29,806 bases of DNA from a virus. This document shows positions 1 through 29,806 of the stretch, piece by piece. Location: IMG/VR virus record IMGVR_UViG_3300042876_000881, positions 1-29,806 of that record. One strand, written 5' to 3'. The position numbers and the translations under genes are program-made. Each line of letters starts with the position of its first letter. Position 1 is the stretch's first letter. A model generated the notes under the pieces. It worked only from the letters and a program-made list of their open reading frames with translations, had not been told where the DNA came from and did not search any database.

Positions 1-434
1 ACTCCGTCAAGCTCAACATCCCTGATGGATATGGTGTTGATGCGATTGCCGATCCAGCGGTGCACCCGGATCGGCATAACAAACGGCAGCGGAAAAGTGA
101 TCTCAGCACGGTAGCTTACAAAGGTTAGCGCGTCGGAATGCGTGGGCTGACAGTCTCTTGTAGATCCAAATTCTAGGGCTGGCACTTCAAGCCGAGTCTC
201 GCCATCCACCTCCAGCCGTGCGATGAGTCGAGCTTGTGTCGTTGTCAGCGGTACGGACTCACGGACATCGCCGCGCACTATTGGATCGGTAGTGTGAAAA
301 ATCTGAGGCGATCGCAGTCTAATGATCGTCCATCGCTGCACACCGCCCCGCTCTGCATCTGTTACCCGATCGGAAATCTCCTGTGCTTGTAAGTGGTAAT
401 TTCTCAACCGCTCGGTCAATCCGTCGAAGTCCAT
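1..434 (-). CDS. Unknown phage protein, 3' end outside window
   Basis: An open frame of 144 codons runs from ATG at 434 off the left edge, so the C-terminus is missing. The start overlaps the stop of the upstream gene by one base (TGATG), the coupling seen throughout this operon. The visible part begins MDFDGLTERLRNYH, is rich in charged residues and beta-type sequence, and has no signal peptide or membrane segment. I do not recognise the family. Its place at the downstream end of a run of head-tail or tail genes suggests a structural or tail-assembly role, which is inference only. HIP1 octamers occur inside it, as in its neighbours. Confidence 0.75.
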   Translation of the reverse strand, partial: MDFDGLTERLRNYHLQAQEISDRVTDAERGGVQRWTIIRLRSPQIFHTTDPIVRGDVRESVPLTTTQARLIARLEVDGETRLEVPALEFGSTRDCQPTHSDALTFVSYRAEITFPLPFVMPIRVHRWIGNRINTISIRDVELDG

Positions 435-3453: not shown

Positions 3454-3697
3454 TGATATCCTCCCTGATCTGTGCGATCGCCAGTTGAAACCATGCCTGC
3501 AACTCCGGCGTAAAAAACTGCTGAGAGACGGCAAAGATCCAGCGTGAGTCTTCCTCCGAACTGTCGCCACGAGCGATCGCCCGGATCACATCAGTCAACA
3601 GGTCAATGCTTTTTCGATGGACTGCGATCGCCATCAACAGGGCTAACGACCCTGCATTAATTCCAATATCCAAATCAGCTTCGAGCAAGGTAGGCAC
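3446..3697 (-). CDS. Unknown phage protein (83 aa), probable GTG start
   Basis: The frame is open from 3820, but the part above 3697 overlaps the upstream gene. GTG 3697-3695 has GGGGGG eight bases upstream and gives an 83-residue protein beginning with the residues PTLLEADLDIGINAG after the initiator. ATG 3733 is an alternative that lacks a ribosome site and would overlap 59 bases. The protein is helical and acidic, ending WFQLAIAQIREDISG. The G-run comes from a minus-strand copy of the dispersed motif GGTTCGGGGGGTG. No family recognised; position suggests a connector-region protein. Confidence 0.55.
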   Translation of the reverse strand: MPTLLEADLDIGINAGSLALLMAIAVHRKSIDLLTDVIRAIARGDSSEEDSRWIFAVSQQFFTPELQAWFQLAIAQIREDISG

Positions 3698-4052
3698 TGC
3701 CAACACCCCCCGAACCGGATGGAATTTGAACATGAAGAATTGCGGACAGTTCAGCAATATATTCCTGCTTGAGTTCATCAATGCCGATGCCCCTCTGGGA
3801 TGATTCCCACTCCAAGACATCCGCCTTGACTAATGCTCGATTGTCGGAGCGGTTGAATGTTTCGCGATCGCTCCGGTTGGTGTCCAGCCTGTCTAGGATG
3901 TCCTGAGCAGTGGCGATCGCTTCTGGCAGGTCAACCTCTACCCTCGCCATTGATGATCGGAGGATATCCAGATAGGCTTTTTCGGCTGGCACTTGAAGCG
4001 CTCTCCGAATTCGTTCCAGGTCACTTGGGACAGATGTTGTGTTCCAGGGCAT
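3675..4052 (-). CDS. Putative head-tail connector protein (125 aa)
   Basis: The 125-residue protein starts at ATG 4052; no clear Shine-Dalgarno sequence precedes it. It is helical and acidic, opening SVPSDLERIRRALQVPAEKAYLDILRSS and continuing with an ATAQDILDRLD helix and a serine/arginine-rich patch that repeats NRSDRE and NRSDNR. The C-terminal part (IDELKQEYIAELSAILHV) is another helix. Small, helical proteins of this size often form the first connector ring below the portal (the gp6/gp15-like group), and this is the first gene of the run, so that role is plausible. It is inferred from size, helices and position. Confidence 0.6.
   Translation of the reverse strand: MPWNTTSVPSDLERIRRALQVPAEKAYLDILRSSMARVEVDLPEAIATAQDILDRLDTNRSDRETFNRSDNRALVKADVLEWESSQRGIGIDELKQEYIAELSAILHVQIPSGSGGVGSAYLARS
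3704..3716 (-). repeat. Dispersed G-rich motif, exact copy (minus strand)
   Basis: Exact minus-strand copy of GGTTCGGGGGGTG. Its G-run lies eight bases before the GTG chosen as start of the gene 3446-3697 and may act as its ribosome-binding site. Confidence 0.8.
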
Positions 4053-4116
4053 ATAAGTAGGCGATCGCTTTCCTTAAATATGGCATTTATTTTTGATTGG
4101 CGATCGCCTTTATGTC

Positions 4117-4770
4117 TTATACAGATCCTCGCCAGGTTGCACCTACTCTTGCCGTCGCCCCTTCCTCTCCACCCCTCGGAGGGTAGCTAAATGTAGTTGC
4201 CTCGCCTGCTTCCAGGCTTGTGTCATCGACATAAAATGATCCGGAATCAATTAGACTGCCAGAAGCATCCATGATTTCATACTGGATTTGTACGTCTGTC
4301 ACGGATTCTCCCGTGTTATTTACCACTCGCCCGGTGAGCCAGCCATCCGAATCGAAGCGCCAGTCATAGACCGTAACTTCGGCGATCGGTGCAGGTGGAG
4401 TATCTTGGGCTGTGCTGACACTGCCAACACTTCTAATCGCCCCTTCCCAATTCAAGCTAGATTCTTGAGCCGCTGCTTCTCCTGTCGAAATCGGCATCCC
4501 TGCAACACATCCAGGAAATTGAGCAACCCCTTGCTGATAAGCAAGGATAGGATTGCGAATAGCTAAGTAGTAAGCTCTCTCACTAGTGCTAATGCTTTCC
4601 GATCCTGCCAGTGCCAGCGCTAAGCTTTGGGCTTCATTCCACTGCTCAGAACATATTGATTGAAATAGCTGCGATCGCATTTGCTCAATAGGCTCATTTG
4701 CCGATGCAGCATTGCACATTAAAGGCGTGGCAGTAGCAGCGGCAAGAATACCCAAAATTAAATTCTTCAT
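4117..4770 (-). CDS. Secreted FxLYD-like protein (217 aa)
   Basis: The 217-residue product starts at ATG 4770 with AGGTGA a few bases upstream. Residues 1-25 form a signal peptide (MKNLILGILAAATATPL, ending AASA before NEP), so it is probably exported. The middle (about 25-110) is helical with two cysteines. The C-terminal 85 residues (DWRFDSDGWLTGRVVNNTGE, then VTDVQIQYEI, then LEAGEATTFSYP) match the layout of FxLYD domains, which are extracytoplasmic beta-sandwich modules. It stands alone, with 64 bp to the tail genes and a bidirectional terminator beyond its 5' side. A secreted protein here could be a lysogenic-conversion (host-benefit) gene, but this is inference. Confidence 0.78.
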   Translation of the reverse strand: MKNLILGILAAATATPLMCNAASANEPIEQMRSQLFQSICSEQWNEAQSLALALAGSESISTSERAYYLAIRNPILAYQQGVAQFPGCVAGMPISTGEAAAQESSLNWEGAIRSVGSVSTAQDTPPAPIAEVTVYDWRFDSDGWLTGRVVNNTGESVTDVQIQYEIMDASGSLIDSGSFYVDDTSLEAGEATTFSYPPRGGEEGATARVGATWRGSV

Positions 4771-6993: not shown

Positions 6994-6999
6994 ATGCGT

Positions 7000-7018
7000 G
7001 TGGGGGCTAAGCCCCCAC
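7000..7018 (+). promoter_or_regulatory. Intergenic hairpin, 8-bp GC-rich stem
   Basis: GTGGGGGC and GCCCCCAC pair perfectly around the 3-base loop TAA. No T-tract follows, so it is not a classical terminator; it sits 13 bases before the next start codon. Confidence 0.6.
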
Positions 7019-7031
7019 TTGAGGCAAATAG

Positions 7032-11537: not shown

Positions 11538-11607
11538 TGGAGCGCAGGGGAATCGAACCCCTAACCGTTGGGTCTCAAGTCCAAGGCGGTTATTAAACAA
11601 ACGCCCC
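11538..11607 (-). tRNA. tRNA-like sequence with a reduced D-arm, anticodon UGA if functional
   Basis: Read on the minus strand, GGGGCGT and GCGCTCC form a 7-bp acceptor stem (two G-U pairs), AGGGG-TTCGATT-CCCCT is a perfect T-arm, and TTGGA-CTTGAGA-CCCAA is an anticodon arm with one A-C mismatch. A 7-base loop would give anticodon TGA (serine). The D-arm region is only about 16 bases with a 3-bp GTT/AAC stem, and the long variable arm expected of a serine tRNA is missing. It could be a degraded tRNA, a phage tRNA-like element or an attachment-site relic. The CCA end is not encoded. Confidence 0.4.
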
Positions 11608-18423: not shown

Positions 18424-18466
18424 GCTAAGGTGGGCGATCGCTAGTCAGTCAGTCGCCCACCTTAGC
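18424..18466 (+). terminator. Long hairpin between 18062 gene and parA
   Basis: GCTAAGGTGGGCGA (18424-18437) and TCGCCCACCTTAGC (18453-18466) form a perfect 14-bp stem with a 15-base loop containing AGTCAGTCAG. It lacks a T-tract, so it may attenuate or protect the transcript instead of ending it. Confidence 0.6.
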
Positions 18467-18483
18467 CAACCTGGAGACTCAGA

Positions 18484-19492: not shown

Positions 19493-19513
19493 GAAGGGGC
19501 TTTATGCCCCTTC
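19493..19513 (+). terminator. Hairpin terminator
   Basis: GAAGGGGC (19493-19500), loop TTTAT and GCCCCTTC (19506-19513), followed by TTAATTATG. The T-tract is weak, and the next start codon overlaps its end, so read-through may allow the next gene to be expressed. Confidence 0.6.
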
Positions 19514-20858: not shown

Positions 20859-21353
20859 ATGGAAAAGCGAGTGAACATTGAGGACTGGTCTTTAGCTCTT
20901 CAGGGATTGCTGGAAGACTCTCAAATCGAACTGACGAAAATCTTAAGCACTGAGGACTTAGATCGGGAGGAACTAAGAAGCTATGACAGTTCGCTGTCCT
21001 TGCTAATGGAAGAAATCGCAGCCGTACTAAAAAGCGATCGCAAGATTCGGATCAAGGCAGCGCCGGACAGGGGATGGACTGAGTATGAGGTCAAGACATC
21101 CATAGGTATCACCAACTATGACATGTGGAGATTTGACGCAGGGGGCGTGACGCTTAGATCAATTCAGTCGATTGAGGTTGTCCCTAGTGAAAGCGATCGC
21201 GTGATTGCGGATGGGTGGAAAGCCGTCGATAAAGTCGTCAAGGATCGGTGTCAAGCGCTCAAGGCTTCGCTCGGCATCGAAGATGTCGAAGAGATCGGGG
21301 TCGTTGACGACTACTGGCAGATCATCGCACGAATGCTAAACCCCCAACTTTGA
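20859..21353 (+). CDS. Unknown protein downstream of parB (164 aa)
   Basis: ATG 20859 follows the parB stop by two bases and has AGGAG eight bases upstream. The 164 residues begin with a helical region (VNIEDWSLALQGLLEDSQIE), pass through a glutamate-rich stretch and a beta-type middle (WTEYEVKTSIGITNYDMWRF), and end with helices. It has no membrane segment and I do not recognise the family. The tight spacing after parB suggests a role in maintenance or segregation. Its 3' end overlaps the EAL gene on the other strand by 18 bases (convergent). Confidence 0.65.
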   Translation: MEKRVNIEDWSLALQGLLEDSQIELTKILSTEDLDREELRSYDSSLSLLMEEIAAVLKSDRKIRIKAAPDRGWTEYEVKTSIGITNYDMWRFDAGGVTLRSIQSIEVVPSESDRVIADGWKAVDKVVKDRCQALKASLGIEDVEEIGVVDDYWQIIARMLNPQL

Positions 21354-22097
21354 ACATTCCCCAGGCATCCCGATCGCCCAACCTTGCACAAACACTTGAG
21401 GGCGATCGCTCTCCTCAGCCAAGCCCTTAGCCCAATCCCAGGTACCTTGATCCTCGACTCCTTCGAGAGTGCAGGTTGCCTCTAGCTCTGAGCAGAGAGC
21501 AGCGATCGCCCTGACAATTGCCCGTGCTCTGGAGTTGTAGATCAACTGAATCGTGAGAACGTAATCGACCTTGACCGCTGCAAAGATTGGCTGAGAGAGG
21601 CAAACGAAAGGCGAATGTCTTGACCCCTTGCCGCCTAAGTCATCCAGTACAACCGTGTGCGACTCCGCCAAGTGGGTTAGAGTTTTCCCCGCACTACTGT
21701 CAAGATCTAGATAATCCCGCTCAGTGATTTCCAGGTGCAGCAGTCGAGAGCGAGCGTTAAGCGTCGCCATTTGCTTACCCAAGTCCTGGGCAAAATACGA
21801 GGTGCCCAAAATTGCCAGACCCAGATTAACGGCGTGGGGGGTCTCTGTTCTGGCGATCGCCTCTATGCCATGCCTCAACATCCACCAGTCCAAATCAATC
21901 ATCAGAGCGTCATTGTCTGCGATCGCATCAATAAACCAACTCGCAGGAATGACCCCCATAGTCGGATGATTCAATCGGACGAGCATCTCATGTTGAGCGA
22001 TCGCCCCTTCGACTGTGGCGATCGGCTGGCAATGGACAGCGAGGCTGAACCCGTCTCGCTCGGCTAGCGCTTTTCGGATCATCAATTCCCAACCCAT
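21336..22097 (-). CDS. Stand-alone EAL-domain c-di-GMP phosphodiesterase (253 aa)
   Basis: The 253 residues are a single EAL domain with no sensor or GGDEF part. The signature series is present in order: EML (37-39, as EAL), N91, the LEITE motif (E123), DDLGG (152-156, in place of DDFG), K176, EGVE (212-215) and Q238 in VQGW. These are the metal- and c-di-GMP-binding positions in active EAL enzymes, so it may hydrolyse c-di-GMP to pGpG. It is the last gene of a three-gene operon with a membrane protein and an unknown protein. EAL proteins are unusual cargo on a phage. Alternative: a c-di-GMP receptor without catalysis. Confidence 0.82.
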   Translation of the reverse strand: MGWELMIRKALAERDGFSLAVHCQPIATVEGAIAQHEMLVRLNHPTMGVIPASWFIDAIADNDALMIDLDWWMLRHGIEAIARTETPHAVNLGLAILGTSYFAQDLGKQMATLNARSRLLHLEITERDYLDLDSSAGKTLTHLAESHTVVLDDLGGKGSRHSPFVCLSQPIFAAVKVDYVLTIQLIYNSRARAIVRAIAALCSELEATCTLEGVEDQGTWDWAKGLAEESDRPQVFVQGWAIGMPGECSKLGV

Positions 22098-23138: not shown

Positions 23139-23205
23139 TATGTAAACTTTATGTAAAGAATGGGATTTCTAGTTTACTATTAATGATTTCTAGTTTACTA
23201 TAAAT
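23139..23205. promoter_or_regulatory. Divergent control region with tandem repeats
   Basis: Two 21-bp units starting GATTTCTAGTTTACTAT (23164-23184 and 23185-23205) differ in one base and lie in direct tandem, i.e. two helical turns apart. The palindromic-looking TAGTTTACTA is in each. Upstream, TATGTAAA occurs at 23139 and 23150, 11 bp apart. It separates the EAL operon and the small-gene array. Confidence 0.65.
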
Positions 23206-23228: not shown

Positions 23229-23561
23229 ATGAACAGCACCACAGCGATCACGGTTAAGTACATGAATCGTCATCTCTACACCGATATTCAACCTTTTGAA
23301 GTTGTGTCCGTTGCTCCTTCAGGAAAAACGGCATCTGTCAGGCAGATGGATGCCGTTGTCGTTAAGCATCCTGATTTGATGGGGGTTGGCGGGTTTTCTG
23401 CCGCTTGGGACAACGGCACAGCAAAACATGAGATCACGTCCAATCAGTCCAACCCGTCAATCAAAGTAAGGCTTCACAAAGATGGATGGTGGCGTGATTC
23501 TGCCGGGAACAGATACAGCCCTAGCGCTGAGCCAATCAAGTACTATGACCGCAATTTTTAA
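23229..23561 (+). CDS. Unknown small protein (110 aa), first of an array
   Basis: ATG 23229 follows CAGGACACCCCA. The 110 residues start NSTTAITVKYMNRHLYTDIQ and contain beta-type strands with glycine- and tryptophan-rich turns (MGVGGFSAAWDNGTAKHEIT; KVRLHKDGWWRDSAGNRYSP). No membrane or secretion signals. The composition suggests a small beta-rich domain. It is the first gene of an array of six small unknown genes with the same orientation; it is preceded by the tandem repeat operator. Function unknown. Confidence 0.65.
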   Translation: MNSTTAITVKYMNRHLYTDIQPFEVVSVAPSGKTASVRQMDAVVVKHPDLMGVGGFSAAWDNGTAKHEITSNQSNPSIKVRLHKDGWWRDSAGNRYSPSAEPIKYYDRNF

Positions 23562-23571
23562 CAGGTAAAAC

Positions 23572-23605
23572 GCGATCGCCCATCTCGCCACCGATGGGCA
23601 ATAAA
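23572..23605 (+). repeat. Intergenic hairpin element, copy 1
   Basis: Starts with GCGATCGCC; stem GCCCATC (23578-23584) with GATGGGC (23593-23599), loop TCGCCACC, followed by AATAAAC. It is the first of four related copies, each ahead of a small gene. Confidence 0.75.
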
Positions 23606-23625
23606 CCACTACCAAGGCAAAACAA

Positions 23626-23973
23626 ATGAGCGCAACGACCAAAGACGAGCAAGTATTGTCAATCCAGATCGACGACCCTAGTCTATTCGATCAGTACAAC
23701 CCAGGCGATCGCGTATATCTAATTTCTTGGTTTGACGACTCCAGACGCAATCGTGAATACTACAAAATTCAGACCGAAGTTCCGGTAACAAACATGGGAG
23801 GAGTAGAGCGCCCAGAAGGCTGGCTTGGGTCAACCAACAATATAAATGAAACTGCTCACGGACTTCACGAGATCGAAAACCTTTTGCTAGTCGAGCGATT
23901 GAGTAAAGAGGTGATCGCTGGACGCAGGAGAACTGAGTCCGTAGCAACAATATTCAAGCTCTCGAAAGTTTGA
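23626..23973 (+). CDS. Unknown small protein (115 aa), second of the array
   Basis: ATG 23626 lies after the hairpin element and an AAGG tract. The 115-residue product starts SATTKDEQVLSIQIDDPSLF, has a charged, aromatic middle (DQYNPGDRVYLISWFDDSRR; YYKIQTEVPVTNMGG) and a basic C-terminus (SKEVIAGRRRTESVATIFK). There is no membrane or secretion signal. Not recognised. It ends eight bases before the next hairpin element. Confidence 0.65.
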   Translation: MSATTKDEQVLSIQIDDPSLFDQYNPGDRVYLISWFDDSRRNREYYKIQTEVPVTNMGGVERPEGWLGSTNNINETAHGLHEIENLLLVERLSKEVIAGRRRTESVATIFKLSKV

Positions 23974-23980
23974 TTGAGAT

Positions 23981-24017
23981 GCGATCGCCCATCTCGCTGC
24001 TGATGGGCACTGCAAAC
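23981..24017 (+). repeat. Intergenic hairpin element, copy 2
   Basis: Same design as copy 1: GCGATCGC, stem GCCCATC (23987-23993) with GATGGGC (24002-24008), loop TCGCTGCT, then TGCAAAC. Confidence 0.75.
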
Positions 24018-24038
24018 ACCAAACACAGGATCTGGAAA

Positions 24039-24275
24039 ATGATTGACGCGAGAGAGTTGGTTAGGAAGCACCCAAAGAGAATCGGAAGGTTCGTCAGGGA
24101 AAGATTCACCAGCAAGCTGAAAAATTTGGTTTCAGTGAACTGGGTCGGATACAGATCCGGAAATCGAATGGGTGCGTCTATTGGTGACGGCAAAATTTAC
24201 GCGCTTCGGCTTGAATCATGCGACCCACACGGAAAGGTACTTGTCCCAAACCTGGACATTGTTTTAGCCGAGTAG
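24039..24275 (+). CDS. Unknown basic protein (78 aa), third of the array
   Basis: I start at ATG 24039, after GGAAA, leaving the hairpin element in the leader; the in-frame ATG at 23970 would put the element inside the gene. The 78 residues begin IDARELVRKHPKRIGRFVRE, followed by KLKNLVSVNWVGYRSGNRMG and a C-terminal beta-like segment (HGKVLVPNLDIVLAE). It is basic and could bind nucleic acid. The family is not recognised. Confidence 0.6.
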   Translation: MIDARELVRKHPKRIGRFVRERFTSKLKNLVSVNWVGYRSGNRMGASIGDGKIYALRLESCDPHGKVLVPNLDIVLAE

Positions 24276-24283
24276 TCCACACT

Positions 24284-24318
24284 GCGATCGCCCCCTCTCG
24301 CTAAGCAGGGGCAGCAAA
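24284..24318 (+). repeat. Intergenic hairpin element, copy 3
   Basis: GCGATCGC is followed by CCCCT (24292-24296) pairing with AGGGG (24307-24311), loop CTCGCTAAGC, then CAGCAAAC. It shares 28 identical bases with copy 4. Confidence 0.75.
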
Positions 24319-24343
24319 CAAATACACCCTGGAAGATAAAGCA

Positions 24344-24568
24344 ATGTACGCAGCAAATCAAAACGATCCTTCAACTCTCAGAATCATGGGCAATACCGTG
24401 TGGGCTTACAACGACCCATCCGCGTACGGCTGCACAGTCCAGTGGTTGTCTCTTCATCAATATCCTGGCACGGCTCCGGCGTCACCTGTCGATTTGTCTC
24501 CTAACTGGTTTAGCCAGATTGATCATGCCTTGAGATACCGTCCAGATTGCGAACTCAAATTTAATTAA
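24344..24568 (+). CDS. Unknown small protein (74 aa), fourth of the array
   Basis: ATG 24344 follows GGAAGATAAAGCA. The 74 residues are rich in aromatic residues (NTVWAYNDPSAYGCTVQWLS; NWFSQIDHALRYRP) and proline, without a membrane or secretion signal. It may be a small beta protein. I do not recognise it. It is preceded and followed by nearly identical hairpin elements. Confidence 0.6.
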   Translation: MYAANQNDPSTLRIMGNTVWAYNDPSAYGCTVQWLSLHQYPGTAPASPVDLSPNWFSQIDHALRYRPDCELKFN

Positions 24569-24574
24569 TCTTCA

Positions 24575-24608
24575 GCGATCGCCCCTCTCGCTAAGCAGGG
24601 GCAGCAAA
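24575..24608 (+). repeat. Intergenic hairpin element, copy 4
   Basis: GCGATCGC with a 6-bp stem GCCCCT (24581-24586) and AGGGGC (24597-24602), the same ten-base loop as copy 3, and CAGCAAAC. Confidence 0.75.
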
Positions 24609-24630
24609 CCGATACTTTGAGGATAGAGCA

Positions 24631-24972
24631 ATGGCAGTAGATATGACGATCAAGGAAGCTCCTAAGTACACAGAGCCTGACGTTCAATATGCAATCCCCA
24701 CTTTTGACATGGGCATGGGGAGCTGTAGAAATTCAAAGATTTTCTGGAATTGCGTGTTCCCTCCCGACAGCGCACCGCCAGGATTTTACGTGAGGCATCA
24801 CGACAAAAGCACCCACCAGACCCATGTAATTGGCGTGTTTCAATCCTTTTCTGCGGCATGGGCGGCTAATGCATCTTCGGATAGCTTCACGAAAGCCGTT
24901 ATAGAAAAGCTGTCAAACGGCAACTTTGTGCAGGCAAAATCTAGCAAACTTGCGGATCAATCCAATGCCTAA
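24631..24972 (+). CDS. Unknown small protein (113 aa), fifth of the array
   Basis: ATG 24631 follows GAGGATAGAGCA, a good ribosome site. The 113 residues include a mixed region with two cysteines (GMGSCRNSKIFWNCVFPPDS), a histidine-rich stretch (FYVRHHDKSTHQTHVIGVFQ) and a helical C-terminus (FTKAVIEKLSNGNFVQ). No membrane segment. Not recognised. It overlaps the next gene by eight bases. Confidence 0.65.
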   Translation: MAVDMTIKEAPKYTEPDVQYAIPTFDMGMGSCRNSKIFWNCVFPPDSAPPGFYVRHHDKSTHQTHVIGVFQSFSAAWAANASSDSFTKAVIEKLSNGNFVQAKSSKLADQSNA

Positions 24973-28983: not shown

Positions 28984-29018
28984 AGTAAACATTTTAAACC
29001 ACACAGGAGAATCAAGTC

Positions 29019-29806
29019 ATGAACGAAACAGGAATCATCTGGACTGAGGCAACGTGGAACCCCTGGTCAGGCTGTAAGAAGATCAGCCCAGGATGCAAAC
29101 ATTGCTACGCTTACACGCTGGCAGAGAACAAGCGCGGAACCGCTGCATTCCCTAACGGCTTCGATATTACCTTCCGTCCACACAAGTACAAAGAGCCTAC
29201 CAAGCTAAAGCAGGGCGCTCTGATCTTCGTCAATTCGATGTCAGACTTTGCCCTCAAGGATGAGGAGTTTGGCTTGGAACCAGGAACGATGGACAGCTAT
29301 CGCGATCGCATGTTGGACGTCATCGAATCAACTCCTCAGCACGAATACCAAGTGCTGACCAAACGACCAGAGGAGATGCTTCGATATTCCAAACGCCGCA
29401 AATTGCCGCCCAACTTCTGGGCAGGGGTGAGCCTAGATGTTCAGGCAAAGTCCGATCGCCTGGATATCCTCAGAGAGATTGACGCAGAAATCCGGTTCGT
29501 GTCTGCGGAGCCGATCTTGTCTCATCTGCATGACCTCGACCTGTCCGGCATTCATTGGTTGATCGGCGGCGGCGAATCGGGTCAGCACCTAATGAAGCCA
29601 GAGGTCAGAGCTAAGCGCTCAATGGCTGACTACGATCCGAAGGCTCGCAAATGGACACCGAGAGGCGATCGCTATCATTGGGCGCAAGACTTGCGCGATC
29701 AGTGCGTCGAGCAGGATGTCAAATTCTTCTGGAAACAGTGGGGAGGCTTTAAACCAACATCCGCAGGCAGAGAGATCGACGGGCGCACCTGGGACGAATT
29801 CCCAAG
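29019..29806 (+). CDS. DUF5131 (phage Gp37/Gp68) family protein, 3' end outside window
   Basis: ATG 29019 is preceded by the third ACCACACAGGAGA copy. The 262 complete codons carry the DUF5131 signature: WNPWSGCKKISPGCKHCYA (cysteines 19, 26 and 29), then RPHKYKEP, VNSMSDFALKDE and further on IGGGESG and FFWKQWGG. The three cysteines at CxxxxxxCxxC are like those of radical-SAM-type proteins, so an iron-sulphur cofactor and a role in nucleotide or nucleic-acid modification are possible. The function of this family in phages is not established, and the call is based on the motif pattern. It follows the second ParB-like gene by about 80 bases. The C-terminus is cut by the window edge. Confidence 0.85.
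   Translation, partial: MNETGIIWTEATWNPWSGCKKISPGCKHCYAYTLAENKRGTAAFPNGFDITFRPHKYKEPTKLKQGALIFVNSMSDFALKDEEFGLEPGTMDSYRDRMLDVIESTPQHEYQVLTKRPEEMLRYSKRRKLPPNFWAGVSLDVQAKSDRLDILREIDAEIRFVSAEPILSHLHDLDLSGIHWLIGGGESGQHLMKPEVRAKRSMADYDPKARKWTPRGDRYHWAQDLRDQCVEQDVKFFWKQWGGFKPTSAGREIDGRTWDEFP

Follow-up and report, generated by a model that had tools for sequence, protein, structure and literature searches.

What does a closely similar hairpin do in four successive gaps between small cyanophage genes, and does it act on the transcript or on the DNA? The locus lies in a whole IMG/VR record of 29,806 bases, called the window here. Five consecutive small genes run along its + strand (23229-24972), and the gaps between them are filled by four copies of one element. 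A first-pass annotation had placed these copies at 23572, 23981, 24284 and 24575, and all four can be read directly on the + strand and are recovered as repeat families D1/D2.

The large terminase of the window finds its closest matches in Cylindrospermopsis phages (41%). The other gene products include a portal protein, ParA, two ParB proteins, a Rad52/Erf-like protein and an antirepressor-like protein, and the record is therefore a cyanophage or part of one. The phage record also encodes an EAL domain protein at 21339-22097 on the - strand (Pfam, E 5e-28), possibly a cyclic-di-GMP phosphodiesterase, and gives a weak tRNA match at 11538-11607 on the - strand (Rfam, 31.2 bits) that ARAGORN did not find.

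Four elements in a string of small genes

The features of the locus are as follows.

23164..23205, +: tandem direct repeat of 21 bp ahead of the operon-first gene; candidate operator/promoter region
23229..23561, +: first small gene of the operon, 110 aa, with a weak match to phrog_33370; not preceded by a hairpin element
23572..23606, +: junction element 1; HIP1, stem GCCCATC/GATGGGC, loop TCGCCACC, tail AATAAAC; gap of 64 nt, flanked by 23229-23561 and 23626-23973
23626..23973, +: 115-aa gene without family assignment, following element 1
23981..24017, +: junction element 2; HIP1, stem GCCCATC/GATGGGC, loop TCGCTGCT, tail ACTGCAAAC; gap of 65 nt, next ATG at 24039
24039..24275, +: 78-aa gene without family assignment, following element 2
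24284..24319, +: junction element 3; HIP1, one extra C, stem CCCCT/AGGGG, loop CTCGCTAAGC, tail AGCAAAC; gap of 68 nt, next ATG at 24344
24344..24568, +: 74-aa gene without family assignment, following element 3
24575..24609, +: junction element 4; HIP1, stem GCCCCT/AGGGGC, loop CTCGCTAAGC, tail AGCAAAC; gap of 62 nt, next ATG at 24631
24631..24972, +: 113-aa gene without family assignment, following element 4; not followed by a hairpin element

HIP1 reads GCGATCGC in all four elements, the stems are 6-7 bp long, and a TCTCGC stretch runs into the loop. The shared features described in the first-pass annotation (HIP1, a TCGC-containing loop and an AAAC tail) are confirmed from the sequence, and so is the exchange of an A-T for a C-G pair: copies 1 and 2 pair CCCAT with ATGGG, copies 3 and 4 CCCCT with AGGGG. 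The first-pass annotation had placed a small gene of unknown function after each copy; the four ORFs that follow the elements (115, 78, 74 and 113 aa) have no Pfam or PHROG match, and the small proteins of the window show no homology worth counting among themselves. We assume from the short co-directional gaps that the five genes are co-transcribed.

Repetition and recurrence argue against chance

With 122 sites (about 4 per kb), HIP1 is very dense in the window, and random stems beside it could in principle produce such structures. As a class, stems adjoining HIP1 are not enriched (8 of 244 oriented sites, where shuffling predicts 5.6). Folding z scores are -4.0 and -3.3 for copies 1 and 2 and -0.9 and -1.3 for copies 3 and 4, which fold barely better than shuffles. 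Since HIP1 is background here, the evidence lies in the repetition of the whole element and in its recurrence elsewhere. The four window cores, 28-29 nt each, are closely similar; they score 45-50 bits with a covariance model that had three of the four in its training set, and the next-best match in the window (42-84), antisense to a gene and taken as chance, scores 21 bits. With closely similar cores, three further lineages and the same spacing, a chance origin is so improbable that we regard it as already refuted by recurrence.

In total, ten junction copies were found across four lineages of viral or mobile DNA (the window, L170/L047, L241 and L015/L164). A pattern scan of viral contigs revealed two full copies and one half-deleted copy upstream of the sliding-clamp gene in L047/L170; relaxed stem patterns on these contigs revealed three junction copies and one terminal copy in L233/L241; and the copy of L015/L164 lies on a 117-kb contig of Oculatella sp. 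LEGE 06141. Among the matches listed for the pattern GATCGCCCNTCTCGC on viral contigs, most were chance and two were real, while CGATCGCCCCTCTCGCT gave 40 matches on genomes, of which the Oculatella one was real. Further relaxed stem patterns on viral contigs, after those that gave L233/L241, added no more lineages. When ORFs near the elements were compared between lineages, no homology emerged except for two unrelated pairs at other places on the contigs. Separately, the ORF 28998-29804, open at the record end, is 43% identical over 262 aa to an L015 ORF, which shows gene sharing between two lineages bearing the hairpin element.

The covariance-model search of cyanobacterial genomes that the first-pass annotation had suggested (n=386) showed the element on the Oculatella contig and not in the other hits viewed. 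Combined with the pattern search over the same 386 genomes, it gave no viewed match at a cistron junction beyond Oculatella, the covariance-model matches being viewed as stretches of about 100 bases and the pattern matches as the matched letters alone, with 17 candidates scored per genome by a model that leans on HIP1. We judge the remaining matches, from these short stretches, to be chance, and the element is likely rare in cyanobacterial chromosomes. A hairpin in one cyanobacterial genome (L184) was rejected because no gene lies directly behind it. BLAST of element 4 against phages and plasmids gave no convincing match, no covariance-model match was obtained in the Cylindrospermopsis and Nodularia phages that have related terminases, and none of 4227 Rfam families matched the element region at the gathering score of its covariance model.

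Pairing is conserved while the stem changes

Over the ten junction copies, 98.3% of the stem cells are paired. Two of the six stem pairs vary on both sides: pair 4 is C-G, U-A or U-G, and pair 5 is A-U or C-G. Both-sided changes occupy seven cells against 3.2 in column shuffles (0 of 500 shuffles reach seven); since alignment A5 was fitted to a model of the same stem and the copies within a lineage are related, these changes represent few independent events, perhaps two or three. About three stem variants occur across the four lineages, and the stems are homogeneous inside each. Sliding the partner by one to three columns abolishes the covariation signal. Only two departures are one-sided; read on the strand presumed to be transcribed as sense, both are G-U wobbles, which suits RNA. 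The first-pass annotation had reckoned with elements that occur only here and lack covariation; three other lineages and two stem pairs changing on both sides speak otherwise.

The element marks the junction between two genes

Each of the ten copies lies between co-directional genes in a gap of 62-68 nt; HIP1 starts 3-10 nt past the stop codon, and 26-32 nt separate the stem end from the ATG. This spacing is kept though the flanking genes are non-homologous and the spacer sequence has diverged; in some copies an A-rich spacer and the Shine-Dalgarno sequence belong to the repeated unit. Judged by ribosome footprints, a ribosome ending translation and another starting it would both fit, one on either side of the element. 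When the HIP1 sites of the window were checked for this geometry, the four elements and one - strand site were found. The latter (HIP1 at 4100-4107) belongs to a co-directional gap of 64 nt, flanked by 4117-4770 and 3675-4052, and has no hairpin.

A + strand gene does lie downstream of each window copy, as first annotated, but "precedes a small gene" is only half the picture: the site is a two-gene junction, operon-first genes carry no intact copy, and one L241 copy ends its operon. The operon-first genes without an intact element are 23229 in the window and 1983 and 2739 in L241, and in L170 the copy ahead of the first small gene is missing half of its hairpin. In the operon-last copy of L241, TTTTT directly follows the stem, a terminator-like arrangement, and this copy resembles an intrinsic terminator.

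None of the four window gaps contains a run of four T, and a terminator scan lists none of these junctions. A scan of the junctions for promoters of the sigma-70 type gave no match; a -10-like TANNNT occurs in one of the four gaps only. The element gives no gain in predicted Shine-Dalgarno accessibility.

Other hairpins were seen at gene junctions. A 15-bp hairpin enclosing HIP1 (18426-18468), longer than the junction elements and of different sequence, lies between a small gene and the ParA gene (ATG 18484), and strong hairpins also occur in short co-directional gaps at 19493-19513 and 6995-7020, so that junction hairpins of other sequences may be common in this phage. In L015, the junction behind a 99-aa gene (865-1164, -) carries a hairpin with HIP1 in both arms, GCGATCGCCCTC...AAAGGGCGATCGC.

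Comparison with known repeated elements

Integron attC sites form hairpins directly past the stop codon of each cassette, all in one orientation. The window element shares the hairpin just after the stop and the single orientation, but the attC cores RYYYAAC (R'') and GTTRRRY (R') are absent from all four window gaps, as the first-pass annotation had noted. The PeSL cassettes of T4-like phages, as outlined in PMC4503421, are likewise repeated intergenic stem-loop modules linked to gene shuffling; they combine an early promoter with a stem-loop terminator, whereas neither a sigma-70-type promoter nor a T-tract was found in the window junctions. The SAS/ESAS repeats of cluster K mycobacteriophages lie in one orientation upstream of non-structural genes of different families, as here (PMC3203893). 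The 13-bp SAS GGGATAGGAGCCC has no match in the window gaps at up to 3 mismatches, and the window element sits at junctions and not at operon-first genes, unlike SAS/ESAS. Its pairing is conserved, whereas the authors of the ESAS study found little support for RNA pairing (PMC3203893). Each of these three systems fails at least one defining test.

HIP1 itself (GCGATCGC; PMC4390886) is inside every full copy, but it is a genome-wide background, while the hairpin and the spacing are specific to the element. Intercistronic stem-loops, as a kind, are already known: protective examples occur in the bacterial operons puf, malEFG and menBCE (PMC5927463). Like the window element in its presumed operon, these are U-less hairpins between cistrons of the same operon, sometimes several of them; they are tied to particular operons, in contrast to the window element, whose copies are sequence-related and reused at successive junctions and in several viral lineages. 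In open-licence papers we found no sequence-related intercistronic hairpin reused along operons and viral lineages. The position and pairing of the window element fit a hairpin between cistrons, presumed here to be co-transcribed, and a protective function is predicted by analogy.

Discussion

Based on its spacing, placement and covariation, we favour a role of the element as RNA rather than as a recombination site. The element probably serves as a connector that can be used repeatedly, keeping the messages of an operon apart or protecting each of them. The module separating neighbouring small genes in cyanophage operons would read, in order, stop codon, about 8 nt, HIP1 and hairpin, A-rich single strand, Shine-Dalgarno sequence and ATG. 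In the polycistronic transcript, the hairpin would shield the upstream cistron at its 3' end, and a host ribonuclease, most likely RNase E, could cut the A-rich strand that follows, splitting the operon into separately stable messages, each keeping its own ribosome-binding site. Synechocystis RNase E prefers A at -4/-3 and U at +2. This enzyme is capable of recognising a stem-loop and cleaving the single-stranded stretch that follows (PMC10989914), and U-less protective hairpins lie behind stabilised genes in E. coli operons (PMC5927463). We hold protection of the upstream 3' end combined with cutting in the A-rich strand to be the most likely reading, though a tentative one, at somewhat less than an even chance. 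The short stem (6-7 bp) and the weak folding of copies 3 and 4 count against a protective hairpin, and the null result for Shine-Dalgarno accessibility counts against an intercistronic-hairpin module. Simple 3'-end protection also does not explain the invariance of the TCGC loop in nine of ten copies.

The first-pass annotation had left the choice between a cassette-associated RNA and a recombination element, and here the repetition, the conserved base pairing and the tie to strings of small genes stand, with RNA as the favoured choice of the two. As a cassette boundary, the element would offer short shared DNA or a hairpin-forming single strand for cassette swaps, and any role at the RNA level would be secondary. 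The downstream genes are unrelated both within and between lineages, stems are homogeneous inside each lineage, and a relative of the L170 phage (sliding clamp shared at 50%) has neither the element nor the small-gene string, all of which suits such exchange. Homologous exchange, however, needs neither compensatory stem changes nor fixed distances to stop and start, and integron cores are absent, so that we consider a primary role in recombination somewhat unlikely. Exchange at junctions is compatible with a role in mRNA, and both may occur: the module would have spread by duplication, and probably also by recombination together with its gene cassette, and the element may mark exchangeable cassettes too.

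The hairpin followed by T5 at the end of the L241 operon suggests instead an attenuator derived from a terminator, at which partial termination or pausing would grade expression along the operon. RNA polymerase peaks are enriched at HIP1 in S. elongatus, where predicted terminators between ORFs of the same operon lower downstream transcription (PMC3219970). The lack of four-T runs and of predicted terminators at the window junctions weighs against attenuation, which we regard as unlikely. A start-associated signal of the SAS/ESAS kind, promoting or regulating initiation of the downstream gene, would account for the fixed 26-32 nt to the ATG and for the copies in which the A-rich spacer and Shine-Dalgarno sequence are repeated; such a signal is improbable given that operon-first genes go without it, that the distance to the upstream stop is fixed too and that site accessibility does not gain.

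The invariant loop allows a further model, in which the first half of HIP1, GCGA, would pair with the loop UCGC in an H-type pseudoknot. At cistron junctions this fold would be bound by some factor of the host or the phage, and the copies would constitute a compact, mobile viral RNA family. This pairing is allowed in nine of the ten junction copies, and neither side varies in those nine. Copy 3 of L241, with the loop CCAACCC, cannot form it, which speaks against the pseudoknot being essential, and we give the model little weight.

Our findings address the question of how phages acquire and express small orphan genes that lack promoters of their own. A standard junction element, set at fixed distances from stop and start codons, would explain how a new gene can be inserted in an operon and expressed as its own unit, and if the pseudoknot family were real, cyanophages would link exchangeable small genes by a standard RNA connector. 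The element would offer a marker for finding strings of small genes in cyanophages, and it points to a possible context-specific use for HIP1.
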